Source: Cyanobium sp. (lineage in GTDB: Bacteria; Cyanobacteriota; Cyanobacteriia; PCC-6307; Cyanobiaceae). Taken from it: a stretch of 64,000 nucleotides of DNA. Position 1 is the first letter of the stretch, and every line of letters begins with the position of its first letter. Shown here one piece after another: positions 5,945-35,986 of the stretch. The stretch covers positions 62,001 to 126,000 of the forward strand of contig BJHE01000001.1 of the NCBI GenBank assembly GCA_014191755.1, in the 5' to 3' direction. A program made the translations under genes and the position numbers. Under the pieces are notes generated by a model. It made no database searches, had not been told where the DNA came from, and worked only from the letters and a program-made list of their open reading frames with translations.

Positions 5945-7084
5945 TCAGGCTGTCGTTCGCGAGCCGATGCTGGCCCAGAGGGAGGCGAAGGCCCGCTCCA
6001 GCCGAGGCGCGTCGGCGGCGGCCCCCAGCACCACCAACTCCAGGGAGGGCTCGGCGGGCACCGAGCCCGGGATTTCCTGGGCTTCATACCAGCAATCCAG
6101 GCGGGCTCCCACGGCTTGGATCTGCAGGGGAAGGCGGCGACCTTCCTGGTGGAGTCGTCCCTTAAGTCGCAAAACCGGTTCCGTGCGGATCAGATGCAGG
6201 AGCTGTTGCTCAAGGGCTTCCCGCTCCCACAGACCGGTGCGGCGGATCACTACGGCCTCCATGGCGACATGGGTGTGGTGGTGCTCATGGTCATGGTCAT
6301 GATCGTGCTCATGGTCATGCTCATGGTCGGATCCGACCGCGCCCTGCTCCGCGGCGTTCCGGAGGTGGGGATCGTCGCTCGGATCAGCGCCCCTGGAGGC
6401 CAGCAGCAGGAACGGATCCACCCTGCCCCGGGCCATTGGGAGCACGGAGGTGCCCGGCCGGAGACGGGGGCGAATCTGGCCAACAACCTGCTCCAACCGT
6501 GTTCCGTCCAAGCGGTCAGCCCGGCTGACGAGAACGAGATCAGCGGCCTCAAGCTGATCCTGGAAGAGGTCCTCGATCGCTCGCAGGTGATCAAGGCTGG
6601 GGTCCGCCCGGCGCTGGGCATCCACCGCCTCGGCATCACCAACCACATGTCCCGCCGCAAGAGCCTCGCCATCCACCACTGTGACCACGGCATGCACGCG
6701 GGTCCGGGTGCGGATGGATGGCCAGCCGAAGGCCGCTACGAGGGGTTCGGGTAGGGCGAGTCCGCTTGTTTCCACCACGATCCCGTCGAGGTCGTCGGAG
6801 CGCTCCAGCAGGCTCAACATGGTGGGCAGAAACTCATCTTGAACCGTGCAGCAGAGGCAGCCGTTGGCCAGTTCCACCAGGCGACCATCCAGTTCCTGGG
6901 CATCACAGAAGCCACAGGCAGCCAGCAGGTCGCCATCGATGCCGATCTCACCGAACTCATTGACCAGAACGGCGAGTTTCAGCCCGCTTTCCAGCAAGAG
7001 GTGACGCAACAGGGTGGTTTTGCCGGAGCCGAGGAAACCGGTCACCACGGTGACCGGCAACCGGCTGGACGGGGAGACGGCCAT
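5945..7084 (-). CDS. CobW/COG0523 family metal-chaperone GTPase with His-rich loop
   Basis: PVTVVTGFLGSGKTTLLRHLL, ELANGCLCCTVQDEF (CXCC), ETSGLALPEPLV; DHEHDHEHDHDHDHEHHHTH segment; start placed at ATG 7084. Confidence 0.92.
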   Translation of the reverse strand: MAVSPSSRLPVTVVTGFLGSGKTTLLRHLLLESGLKLAVLVNEFGEIGIDGDLLAACGFCDAQELDGRLVELANGCLCCTVQDEFLPTMLSLLERSDDLDGIVVETSGLALPEPLVAAFGWPSIRTRTRVHAVVTVVDGEALAAGHVVGDAEAVDAQRRADPSLDHLRAIEDLFQDQLEAADLVLVSRADRLDGTRLEQVVGQIRPRLRPGTSVLPMARGRVDPFLLLASRGADPSDDPHLRNAAEQGAVGSDHEHDHEHDHDHDHEHHHTHVAMEAVVIRRTGLWEREALEQQLLHLIRTEPVLRLKGRLHQEGRRLPLQIQAVGARLDCWYEAQEIPGSVPAEPSLELVVLGAAADAPRLERAFASLWASIGSRTTA

Positions 7085-7086
7085 GC

Positions 7087-7713
7087 TCAACCCACCAGAG
7101 CGGACCAGGTCCAGGCGGCGCCGAGGCCGAGCAACACTGCCGCCATGGTGTGGCGGGTGGTGGCGGAGCAAGCGGCGGCGCTGTGGCGCAGAACACCGAG
7201 GGCCACCAGGAGCAACGCACCCTGGCTGATCAGCAACCCGATCAGGTAGGTGGCGATTGGCGCTGCAGTCCAGCCCAGCACCATTCCGCTGAGCACATAG
7301 CCATGCAAAGCGATCGCCGGGAGCAGGAGGCGGCGGTCCCAGCCCGCCAGGAGAATCAGGGCCACCAATACCAAGCTGAAAGACACCAGGGCTTCGGCCG
7401 CTGGCAGGCCTGGCAGCAGCAGCCCGAGGAAACTGCCACCCAGACCGGTGGCCAGCAGCGCGAGCATCCAGCTGCTGCGGTGACGCAGTCCCACCAGGGA
7501 GAGCGCCAGCAAAAAGAGCAGATGGTCGGGGCCCAGCACCGGGTGGGCCAGGCCGCTCAGCAGGCCGGTGAAGGGGTTGGGCTTGAGATGCAGCAGATGC
7601 ATCAGGTGGTGGGCGTGGGCCGCCTCTGGAAGCAACGCCAGGATCGCCAGGGCAGCGGGCAGCAGGGTTGCCAGGAAGCCGGGGCCCCGGCGCCCGGGAA
7701 GAGCTGAAGTCAT
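7087..7713 (-). CDS. HupE/UreJ family membrane metal transporter (probable cobalt permease)
   Basis: Multi-TM protein with HPVLGPDHLLFLLALSLVGL (HupE/UreJ motif); immediately upstream of the CobW gene and downstream of a cobalamin riboswitch. Confidence 0.85.
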   Translation of the reverse strand: MTSALPGRRGPGFLATLLPAALAILALLPEAAHAHHLMHLLHLKPNPFTGLLSGLAHPVLGPDHLLFLLALSLVGLRHRSSWMLALLATGLGGSFLGLLLPGLPAAEALVSFSLVLVALILLAGWDRRLLLPAIALHGYVLSGMVLGWTAAPIATYLIGLLISQGALLLVALGVLRHSAAACSATTRHTMAAVLLGLGAAWTWSALVG

Positions 7714-7876: not shown

Positions 7877-7929
7877 AATAAACTCTAGGTGCAGGTTGGA
7901 TGGGTCTCCCCGATACCGCTCCAACCTTG

Positions 7930-7985
7930 AAGCGAACCCACAGAGCGGAAGCGAACCCACAGAGCGGAGGCGAGCCCTCAGAGGG
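7930..7985. repeat. Short tandem repeat (19-bp unit, about 2 exact copies plus one degenerate)
   Basis: AAGCGAACCCACAGAGCGG AAGCGAACCCACAGAGCGG AGGCGAGCCCTCAGAGGG. Confidence 0.85.
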
Positions 7986-31683: not shown

Positions 31684-33915
31684 TCAAGCTTTTTTAAGTT
31701 TCTCTTTAAAATCCAACATTTTCGTTGAATCCTTTGGAGGAGAAGATTCGCGACTCCTCAAGCGCGTGAAATCGGCTAGTACCGAGGCCTGGTTGCGCAG
31801 CACTGCCAAAAGATTGAGGCGGTTGGCCCGCACCGCCGGGTCGTCGGCCATCACCAGCACGCTGTCGGAGCCGTCAAAGAAGCGCTCCAGGATGGGGGCG
31901 TTCACAGCCAAACCTTCTGCCAGCTGTGAGTAGCGGTTTGGTTCGCAGCCGGTGGCGAATTCTGCTAGCGCCTGAACCGCCTTGAGCATCTCGGCCTCAC
32001 TGTTTTTTTCAAACAGGGCCGCATCCACCACGCCCTCCGGGCTGCGCACTGATTCGGGCAGATTGCCTTTTTCGGCCAGCCGGGAAGCCCGCTGCACCAC
32101 GGCCTGCACTGCTGCAAGCTCGCCGTTTTCAATTAGGGAACACAGCAGTTCGACGCGGCGGCGGGCATCGGCCGGATCGGCTAGTACCCGCTCCAGGGCC
32201 AACCCCTCCCCGGCGACCGCCTGCACCACATCCACCGCAAACCCCTCCTCCTCGAGCAGGCTCACGAGGCGCTGGCGCAGGAATTCCGCAAGTTCGGCGG
32301 CAAGGGCGGCGCTGTTCACCTCAAAAGCGGGGAAAAGCGCAGCCCACTGGCTGCTGCAGCGCTGCAGCAGGTCGGGCAGATCCAGCCGCCAGCCCCGCTC
32401 CCAGAGGATCTGGAGCAGGCCATTGCCGGCCCGGCGAAGGGCATAGGGATCCGAGGAGCCCGTCGGGCGTTCCCCTTTGGCATAGATGCTCAGCAGCAGT
32501 TCGAGCCGCTCCGCCAAGGCCACCACGGCCCCGGCATCGCTGCCAGGCAGGGCATCGCCGGCTCCGCGGGGGAGGTAATGCTCGAGCACGGCCAGAGCCA
32601 CGGCCCGAGGCTCCCCCTCGGCCAGCAGATATTTGCCCCCCATCACTCCCTGGAGCTCAGGGAACTCCCCCACCATCTGGCTCACCAGATCGTGCTTGCA
32701 GAGGTGGGCTGCGCGGCGGGCATGGTCAGCGGTCGGGGGGTTGAGAGGCAGCCGCTCCAGCAGAACATCGGTGCACCACTCCAGCCGCTCAACGCGGTCG
32801 CGCAGGCTGCCGAGGCCTTCCGCGAAGGTGACCCGCGCCAGTTGCTCGCGGCGGTCGATGCTGGCGGTGGATCGATCGGCCGCCAGGAAGAACTCGGCAT
32901 CGGCCAGCCGCGCCCGCAGCACCCGCTCGTTGCCGCGGCGAATCGTGGCGGCCGCCGCATCCAGTCCGTTGCCGATGCAAAGGAAGCGGGGGAGCAGCTG
33001 GGAGCCCGCCTCCAGCGCCAGGGGATCAGCCGGAGCGTCTTGACGCTGCAGGGGCACGTAGCGCTGATGGGCGCGCATCACCGTGCTGAGCACCTCGGGG
33101 GGGAGGTCCAGGAAGCGCTCCTCGATGGCACCCTCGATCAGGCGGGGCGATTCGACCAGATCCACCAGCTCCTCGAACAGGGCGTCAGGGAGATCGGGCC
33201 GGGCCGTGGAGGCTTCGGCGGCGGCGGTGATCGCCTGCCGGATGGCGGAGGCACGGGCCTGGCGATCGACCTGGACATCGGCGGCGGCCAGGGCGCCGAC
33301 ATAAGCAGTGGCGGTGTCAATCACCACGGGATCGGCGTGGAGTCGGTGGCCCCGGCTGATGCGATCGCTGTGCAGGGGGGGATCGCAATCGGCCAGGGTG
33401 ATCGGCACTACCGCTCCATCGAGCAGGGCCACCAGCCAGCGGAGCGGACGGCTGAAGCGGCTTTCGCCATTGCCCCAGCGCATGAAGCGGCGGCCCTGCA
33501 GGTTCCAGATCCAGGCGGGCGCCAGCTCGGCCAGCACCTCGGCGGTGGCCCGGCCCGGCTCGATGCTGCGGGCAAAGACGAAAGCCCCCTTTTCGGTGTC
33601 CCGCACCTCCAGGGCCTCGGGTTCCACGCCGCAGCGGCGGGCAAATCCCACGGCGGCGGGAGTCGGAAGGCCATCGCGGAAGGCCTGCTGGGCCGGAGGG
33701 CCCTTGCGTTCCTCGCTGCGATCCTCCTGCCGCTCCGCCAGATCCTCGAGCCGCAGGGCGAGCCGGCGCGGGGTGCCATCCACCCTGATGGCGCCGCTGT
33801 TGATCCGGGCCTCGGCCAGATCCCGCCGAACCCGCAGCATCAGCTGTTCGAGGGCCGAGCCTGCGAAATCGGCGGGTAACTCCTCGGTGCCGATCTCCAA
33901 CAGGAACGTGGCCAT
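31684..33915 (-). CDS. glyS: Glycine--tRNA ligase beta subunit
   Basis: MATFLLEIGTEELPADFAGSALEQL; start moved to ATG 33915 from the over-extended ORF. Confidence 0.96.
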   Translation of the reverse strand: MATFLLEIGTEELPADFAGSALEQLMLRVRRDLAEARINSGAIRVDGTPRRLALRLEDLAERQEDRSEERKGPPAQQAFRDGLPTPAAVGFARRCGVEPEALEVRDTEKGAFVFARSIEPGRATAEVLAELAPAWIWNLQGRRFMRWGNGESRFSRPLRWLVALLDGAVVPITLADCDPPLHSDRISRGHRLHADPVVIDTATAYVGALAAADVQVDRQARASAIRQAITAAAEASTARPDLPDALFEELVDLVESPRLIEGAIEERFLDLPPEVLSTVMRAHQRYVPLQRQDAPADPLALEAGSQLLPRFLCIGNGLDAAAATIRRGNERVLRARLADAEFFLAADRSTASIDRREQLARVTFAEGLGSLRDRVERLEWCTDVLLERLPLNPPTADHARRAAHLCKHDLVSQMVGEFPELQGVMGGKYLLAEGEPRAVALAVLEHYLPRGAGDALPGSDAGAVVALAERLELLLSIYAKGERPTGSSDPYALRRAGNGLLQILWERGWRLDLPDLLQRCSSQWAALFPAFEVNSAALAAELAEFLRQRLVSLLEEEGFAVDVVQAVAGEGLALERVLADPADARRRVELLCSLIENGELAAVQAVVQRASRLAEKGNLPESVRSPEGVVDAALFEKNSEAEMLKAVQALAEFATGCEPNRYSQLAEGLAVNAPILERFFDGSDSVLVMADDPAVRANRLNLLAVLRNQASVLADFTRLRSRESSPPKDSTKMLDFKEKLKKA

Positions 33916-34042
33916 GGGAAATGGACAGGGGAGGTGTTGGCGAACTGTATTGAAACGGTGGGTTGAGTTTCGGCGGCTAGAGATCGGCGGCCTGAGCGGT
34001 CGCAGTTCGCTAGCTTCGGTGCACAAGCGCAAGGAATCAGGA

Positions 34043-35986
34043 ATGGCCCCATCGAGGGTTGCCTCCCGTGCCACCGCCGATGGATCCTCCAAACGGCCAG
34101 CCCAGTCGGCTCCATCCCAGTCTGAGGCCAACGAAGCGAAGGCTGAGGCCAACGAAGCGAAGGCTGAGGCCAACGAAGCGAAGGCTGAGGCCAACGGAGC
34201 GAAGGCTGAGGCCAACGGAGCGAAGGCTGAGGCCAACGGAGCGAAGGCTGAGGCCAACGGAGTGAAGGCTGCGACACCGACCAAGTTCGAGCAGCTCAAG
34301 GCGAGCAGCACTCACCTGCACGAACCGCTGGGCAGCGAGCTTTCCAACGAACTGAAGAATTTCAGTGAGGGCGCCGTCCAGATCCTTAAGTTTCACGGCA
34401 GTTATCAGCAGGACAATCGCGATAATCGCCGCAAGGGAGAGGAGAAGGACTGGCAGATGATGCTGCGTCTCCGCAGTCCGGCGGGCCGCATCCCGGTGCC
34501 GCTTTACCTCGCCCTCGATGGGCTGGCCGACCGTTTGGGCAACGGCACCCTTCGGGCCACCACCCGCCAGGCCTTCCAGATGCATGGGGTGGCCAAGACC
34601 GACCTGAAGGAGGTGATCGGCACGATCGTGCGCTCGATGGGCTCCACCCTTTCGGCCTGCGGGGACATCAACCGCAACGTGATGGCACCAGCGGCCCCGT
34701 TCAGCGGCGGCGGGTACCCTGCAGCGCGGCTTCTTGCCGATCAGATCGCCGATCTGCTGACGCCGGAGGCCGCCGAGGGCTCCTATCTCGACCTCTGGGT
34801 GGATGGCGACCTCACCTACCGCATCCGTCCCAGCGCGGCGGTGAAGCGTGCCAAGGCCCGCCAGAAGGAGGGGGCCGTGTTCAGCGGTGACTCCGAGGAA
34901 CCGCTCTACGGCTCCACCTACCTGCCACGGAAATTCAAGGTGGCCGTCACCGTGCCCGGTGACAACGCCGTTGACCTGCTCACCCAGGACATCGGCCTGG
35001 TGCTCTTCACGGATCCGAACGGGCGGCCAAGGGGTTGCAATGTCTACGTAGGTGGGGGCATGGGCCGGACCCACAACAAGGAGGAGACCTTCGCCCGCAC
35101 CGCTGACCCACTGGGTTACGTGGCTGCAGACGACGTGCTGGATCTGATCCAGGCGATCCTGGCCTTGCAACGCGACCACGGTGATCGCCAGCAGCGGCGC
35201 CACGCCCGGATGAAGTACTTGATCCACGACCGAGGCATCGGCTGGTTCAAGCAGGAACTGACGCGCTACTTTTCCCAGCCCATCCGCCCCCTGCGGGACG
35301 AACCGAAGCGCAAGCTTCTCGACTACCTCGGCTGGCACCGCCAAGGCGATGGCCTCTGGTTCGTTGGTCTGCCCCTGCTGTGTGGCCGGCTGGAGGGGGA
35401 AACCAAGCTGGCCCTGCGGCGGCTGGTGGAGTTTTACCAGCTGGAGGTGAGACTGACGCCGAACCAGGATTTGCTGCTCTGCAACATCGGGGCCCCGCAG
35501 CGCAGTTCCCTGAAGCGGGAATTAACGGCGATCGGCTTCGCTGCCCCCGAGGACACCACACCCCTGGCCCGCCATGCGATTGCCTGTCCGGCCTTGCCCA
35601 CCTGCGGTCTGGCGATCACCGAAGCCGAGCGGATCCTGCCGATGGTGGTGGCCAGACTGGAGACCCAGCTGGCAGGGCTCGGTATCGAGCGGCCGGTGCT
35701 GGTGCGGATGACGGGCTGCCCGAACGGCTGCGCCCGCCCTTACATGGCCGAAATCGGTCTGGTGGGAAGCGGCGTGGACGAATACCAACTCTGGCTGGGA
35801 GGCACCCCAGGCCTGACCCAGCTGGCCAGGCCCTTCCTGCAACGGCTGCCGCTTGAGCAGCTTGAGAACACCCTGGAGCCGCTGCTCCTGGCTTGGCGCG
35901 ACCAGGGTGGCCGCACGAGTTTCGGGGCCTTCGTGGGGCAGATCGGCGACGCCAGGGTGGCAGAACTATTAGCCATCGCCGGCTGA
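34043..35986 (+). CDS. sir: Ferredoxin-sulfite reductase with repetitive N-terminal extension
   Basis: LKASSTHLHEPLGSELSNELKNFSEGAVQILKFHGSYQQDNRDNR...; siroheme/4Fe-4S motif ACPALPTCGLAITEAER and MTGCPNGCARPYMAEIGLVG; SD-like AAGGA before ATG 34043. Confidence 0.93.
   Translation: MAPSRVASRATADGSSKRPAQSAPSQSEANEAKAEANEAKAEANEAKAEANGAKAEANGAKAEANGAKAEANGVKAATPTKFEQLKASSTHLHEPLGSELSNELKNFSEGAVQILKFHGSYQQDNRDNRRKGEEKDWQMMLRLRSPAGRIPVPLYLALDGLADRLGNGTLRATTRQAFQMHGVAKTDLKEVIGTIVRSMGSTLSACGDINRNVMAPAAPFSGGGYPAARLLADQIADLLTPEAAEGSYLDLWVDGDLTYRIRPSAAVKRAKARQKEGAVFSGDSEEPLYGSTYLPRKFKVAVTVPGDNAVDLLTQDIGLVLFTDPNGRPRGCNVYVGGGMGRTHNKEETFARTADPLGYVAADDVLDLIQAILALQRDHGDRQQRRHARMKYLIHDRGIGWFKQELTRYFSQPIRPLRDEPKRKLLDYLGWHRQGDGLWFVGLPLLCGRLEGETKLALRRLVEFYQLEVRLTPNQDLLLCNIGAPQRSSLKRELTAIGFAAPEDTTPLARHAIACPALPTCGLAITEAERILPMVVARLETQLAGLGIERPVLVRMTGCPNGCARPYMAEIGLVGSGVDEYQLWLGGTPGLTQLARPFLQRLPLEQLENTLEPLLLAWRDQGGRTSFGAFVGQIGDARVAELLAIAG
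34124..34270. repeat. Seven tandem 21-bp repeats inside the 5' end of sir
   Basis: GAGGCCAACGAAGCGAAGGCT x3, GAGGCCAACGGAGCGAAGGCT x3, GAGGCCAACGGAGTGAAGGCT x1; encodes EANEAKA/EANGAKA/EANGVKA. Confidence 0.97.

Follow-up and report, generated by a model that had tools for sequence, protein, structure and literature searches.

The 64,000-nt stretch of DNA analysed here (the window) contains a gene for ferredoxin-sulfite reductase with seven near-identical 21-bp repeats near its 5' end, and this raises the question of whether the repeats are translated and, if so, whether the peptide they encode does anything for the enzyme. Our reading is that the array is probably a coding minisatellite without a specific function, located in the variable N-terminal tail of an enzyme that is otherwise normal. 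The sister referred to throughout is Lake Pavin MAG record JAPLIE010000043.1 (genome G010; locus L003, the same as L043), whose reductase is 94% identical. The features discussed are:

34043..35986, + strand: sir, ferredoxin-dependent assimilatory sulfite reductase, 647 amino acids plus stop (TIGR02042, Pfam, maize homologue)
34006..34019, + strand: conserved TTCGCTAGCTTCGG element, a candidate promoter, with a -10-like TAGCTT at 34011-34016; it begins 37 nt before the ATG
34031..34035, + strand: Shine-Dalgarno-like AAGGA in the sequence, 7 nt ahead of ATG 34043; the sister keeps it as CAGAGCAAGGAACCAGGA-ATG
34043..34123, + strand: N-terminal block before the array, residues 1-27, with the first 14 codons conserved (MAPSRVASRATADG / MSPSKVANSAAADG / MGPSRVTDRANTDG)
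34124-34270, + strand: 21-bp repeat array of seven in-frame units, residues 28-76, (EANEAKA)3(EANGAKA)3 EANGVKA
34262..34264, + strand: GTG, the alternative start named in the original prediction; the GCG-to-GTG change is private to copy 7
31684..33915, - strand: divergent neighbour of sir, which we take from its well-known start to be glyS (glycyl-tRNA synthetase beta subunit), with its start placed at 33915, the ATG of MATFLLEIGTEELPADFA

Judged by its sequence, the sir product is a ferredoxin-dependent sulfite reductase, otherwise ordinary and with a complete core. It matches TIGR02042 at 748.2 bits (curated cut-off 731.5; E 4e-225) over residues 78-642 and profile positions 9-577 of 581, it carries the Pfam domains NIR_SIR and NIR_SIR_ferr, and it is matched by maize Fd-SiR (5h8v) with an E value of 2e-172. 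Cysteines 515, 521, 559 and 563, which serve the siroheme and 4Fe-4S cluster, are invariant in an alignment of 15 homologues. The first 77 residues fall outside the family match. A literature search on N-terminal extensions of cyanobacterial SiR gave nothing directly relevant.

The array itself is highly regular. Tandem Repeats Finder reports a period of 21, 7.1 copies, a 98% match and zero indels at 34122-34271; read unit by unit, the array comprises three copies of GAGGCCAACGAAGCGAAGGCT, three of GAGGCCAACGGAGCGAAGGCT and one of GAGGCCAACGGAGTGAAGGCT. Variation within the unit is confined to codons 4 and 5: copies 1-3 have GAA and copies 4-7 GGA as codon 4, and codon 5 is GTG in copy 7 and GCG in the remaining copies. 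Together with the 647-residue frame, these readings bear out the original prediction of seven 21-bp repeats in frame with the reductase core, and the block-wise pattern supports the ordered duplication history that it had proposed. Exact matching at period 21 continues for up to 65 bases, whereas among 50 first-order Markov sequences of 64 kb generated at random the longest such run has 11, so the array is not due to chance. With its near-identical units arranged head to tail (7 x 21 bp), inside an open reading frame and in a multiple of three, it has the form of a coding minisatellite, or amino-acid tandem repeat. Searches of the same genome found the array at this locus only (DNA) and, for a similar peptide, one insignificant second match, with an E value of 0.65 (protein).

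The window holds other short repeats. A minus-strand ORF at 5945-7171, presumably GTPase-like and resembling CobW (we take the adjoining ORF, 7087-7713, to be HupE/UreJ-like), has a His-rich tandem stretch, HEHDHEHDHDHDHEHHH, derived from 12-bp repeats at 6281-6329. At 7929-7983, in apparently intergenic DNA, a 19-bp unit that is not a multiple of three, GAAGCGAACCCACAGAGCG, is repeated about three times.

Among relatives, the array is narrowly distributed. The sister has six units (EANAAKA EAIPAKA EANPAKA EDNPAKL QDNGAKL QASGAKA) which agree with the window array in phase and at both boundaries but have diverged in unit sequence. Inspected upstream regions of further relatives contain no heptad array. 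A comparison of repeat number across relatives, as originally suggested, thus gives seven units in the window, six in the sister and none in the other inspected loci; both assemblies are apparently draft and the array, at 147 bp, is about as long as one short read, so that copy number may be misassembled. Across 42 genomes of the genus, a DNA pattern for EANxAKAEAN was matched in the window's genome alone; the sister array, being diverged, does not match it. The N-terminal tails of other relatives differ in length and sequence; that of a relative about 84% identical (G026, locus L032) has 36 residues and no repeats. From this distribution, the array appears to have arisen before the window and sister lineages split and after divergence from the L032 lineage, or else to have been lost elsewhere. 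One genome, G030 (95% complete), has no full ferredoxin-SiR match, with weaker siroheme-reductase relatives only and one region with an 820-amino-acid open frame; sir is possibly replaced or missing there.

Is the array translated? An open frame alone is weak evidence, since five of the six frames of the repeat unit lack a stop. The reading frame that begins at ATG 34043 crosses the array into the reductase and continues for 647 residues to the stop at 35986. Window, sister, L032/L004 and L033 all align at this ATG and share the block that follows it, and the pre-array peptide M-PS-V...DG is conserved in three relatives. The block shows third-position changes and, in L033, one in-frame 6-nt insertion, a pattern expected of coding DNA. 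The AAGGA pointed out in the original prediction is confirmed in the sequence and kept in the sister. On these comparisons, ATG 34043 is well supported as the predicted start, which favours its use in the annotation of sir. With a coding block ahead of the array and the enzyme behind it, all in one frame, translation of the array is almost certain; the earlier proposal that the repeats are read from ATG 34043 gains support from the conserved block and from the GCG found in the sister at the site of GTG 34262.

An element of the form TTCGCTAG.TTCG occurs upstream of sir at a similar position across relatives' loci, as TTCGCTA in about 35 of 40 loci and as TAGCTACG in three marine loci, and is a candidate promoter or regulator site. 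A consensus scan of the sir upstream region for sigma-70 promoters and terminators found none. The form TTCGCTAG[TC]TTCG, a few tens of bases before sir, is strongly conserved in Cyanobium/Synechococcus relatives (L003-L042), and TAGCTACGGT-like forms are found upstream of sir in Prochlorococcus. The divergent sir-glyS intergenic region is 127 bp, and in several relatives the same glyS N-terminus is encoded in antisense ahead of sir. The glyS frame has no stop upstream, through the array, as far as a GTG at 34311, which creates a spurious 875-amino-acid ORF (31684-34311, minus strand) that may mislead gene callers; we rejected a longer minus-strand glyS through the array, the product starting at the usual MATFLLEIGTEELP.

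Two readings would remove the repeats from the protein or give them a role outside it. That they form an untranslated leader, with translation starting at GTG 34262 or nearby, would fit the position of this GTG, in frame and seven codons ahead of the conserved core, and the short tails (about 12-24 residues) of some relatives. However, the GTG is absent from the closest relative, is not among the start candidates of L003/L043, and has no substitute between the sister's ATG and its core, making this reading extremely unlikely. It is also at odds with the ATG and first 14 codons, which are conserved or coding-like in three relatives, L033 with its in-frame insertion included, and with the conserved promoter-like element, which begins 37 nt before ATG 34043 at a spacing much like that before other species' starts. 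Alternatively, the array could work as DNA or as RNA, for instance by providing a regulatory site or an RNA structure between the divergently oriented genes sir and glyS, since it sits just inside sir and adjoins their intergenic region. We give this next to no weight: the conserved upstream element falls outside the array, relatives with the same gene arrangement are without it, and folding of 34024-34290 gave no RNA structure beyond that of shuffled sequences (z -0.14).

If the array is part of the protein, the divergence from the sister indicates how far its peptide is constrained. In the array dN is 0.20-0.21 and dS 0.29, versus 0.024 and 0.27 in the reductase core; amino acids have changed about 8-9 times faster in the array, at equal synonymous divergence. 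Amino-acid-changing codons number 13 of 42 in the array and 27 of 567 in the core (Fisher p 4e-7, which is overstated, as duplicated units are not independent), and synonymous changes do not differ (p 0.52). The 27 codons ahead of the array differ at two nucleotides. We infer that the array peptide is under little constraint, a direction that is clear even though the p-value is too small. The two arrays agree in frame, which must be kept, and are similar in length (49 vs 42 residues). Lysine at unit position 6 in all 13 units of window and sister, and alanine at position 5 in 12 of them, could reflect weak constraint or just ancestry.

The original prediction saw a charged, helical segment here and considered a nucleic-acid or protein-binding role by analogy with plant enzymes. 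The units are indeed rich in Glu and Lys, but 'charged' is misleading, as the mix is near-balanced: the array has a net charge of -3 (pI 4.8) and the entire extension is neutral. A conserved helix also lacks support, since unit position 4 is Pro in three of the six sister units and Gly in two, and the prolines in particular would fit poorly into an unbroken, conserved helix. Four of the seven window units carry Gly; we rejected a coiled coil as the main reading on the Pro and Gly within units. AlphaFold, from an alignment of only 15 sequences (mean pLDDT 65.6, with parts of the core low too), gives pLDDT below 50 across nearly all of residues 1-95; this weak model has a helix over residues 27-51 only, in the Glu-type and not the Gly-type copies. 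As for binding, plant SiR compacts the DNA of the plastid nucleoid, which the relevant passages of a review do not tie to an N-terminal repeat (PMC4154389). The acidic array leaves that analogy unsupported here, and a basic DNA-binding segment of the DCP68 kind was not found in the extension, a result that concerns the extension only and not the core. A tail that has a function, either by forming an Ala-cored helical or coiled-coil structure or by binding DNA or ferredoxin, and so tunes oligomerisation, location or electron delivery, is in our view unlikely. EANEAKA could be read as a heptad with Ala at a/d and Glu/Lys at g/e, and the partial AlphaFold helix, the invariant lysine and the plant precedent are compatible with such a function; against them stand the Pro and Gly residues, the lack of net positive charge, the very low pLDDT of the extension, the near-neutral nonsynonymous rate and the absence of the array from the other relatives inspected. 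A more specific version, in which two lake picocyanobacteria share a lineage-specific spacer or oligomerisation helix, tunable in seven-residue steps, that adjusts contact of SiR with ferredoxin or other cell structures, is very unlikely.

We propose that the tail is most likely a dispensable, harmless spacer and not a means of binding DNA. Tandem duplication of 21 bp of the tail would have taken place in the ancestor that the window species shares with its Lake Pavin relative. Slippage or unequal exchange would then alter tail length in seven-residue steps and nothing else, because the unit is a multiple of three without a stop in frame. The near-identity of the window units points to later, recent re-amplification in this lineage, with one or two founder units probably giving rise to the two blocks; copies in the sister lineage would have drifted apart. 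The GGA shared by the 3'-terminal units suggests that the array is older there, and that renewal of the 5' blocks was a separate event. Selection would mainly maintain the frame while the tail tolerates length change, and the tail, probably disordered or transiently helical ahead of the conserved fold, would have only to avoid hindering folding, siroheme/4Fe-4S insertion and ferredoxin access. The array does not alter what is known of sulfite reductase itself. It is a clean, small example of slippage lengthening the tail of a metabolic enzyme with its core untouched, the sister presenting a different later state, and the comparison cautions against assigning function to such tails.

Relative to the TIGR02042 family and maize SiR (5h8v), the window protein has the entire catalytic core (about residues 78-642) and the four cluster/siroheme cysteines, and differs in the seven-unit extension ahead of the core. 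It belongs to the same enzyme family as plant SiR/DCP68, the nucleoid protein treated in those review passages (PMC4154389), but its extension, which has no net charge, is not within the region alignable to maize SiR, and DNA binding has no support here. In-gene tandem repeats that create disordered regions are a known class (PMC9879509, PMC6749651). In those of Borgs, unit length is a multiple of three and disordered regions are a common product (PMC9879509), and the window array resembles them in its in-frame, (near-)perfect units, its fast turnover and its low-complexity, K/E-containing product. Borg repeats form many arrays in an extrachromosomal element, whereas the window array occupies one locus, on the chromosome, in a metabolic enzyme of a cyanobacterium. 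The authors of the Borg study argue for strong selection on their in-gene repeats (PMC9879509), and the window array bears no sign of such selection; the precedent thus covers the form of the repeat and not its neutrality.
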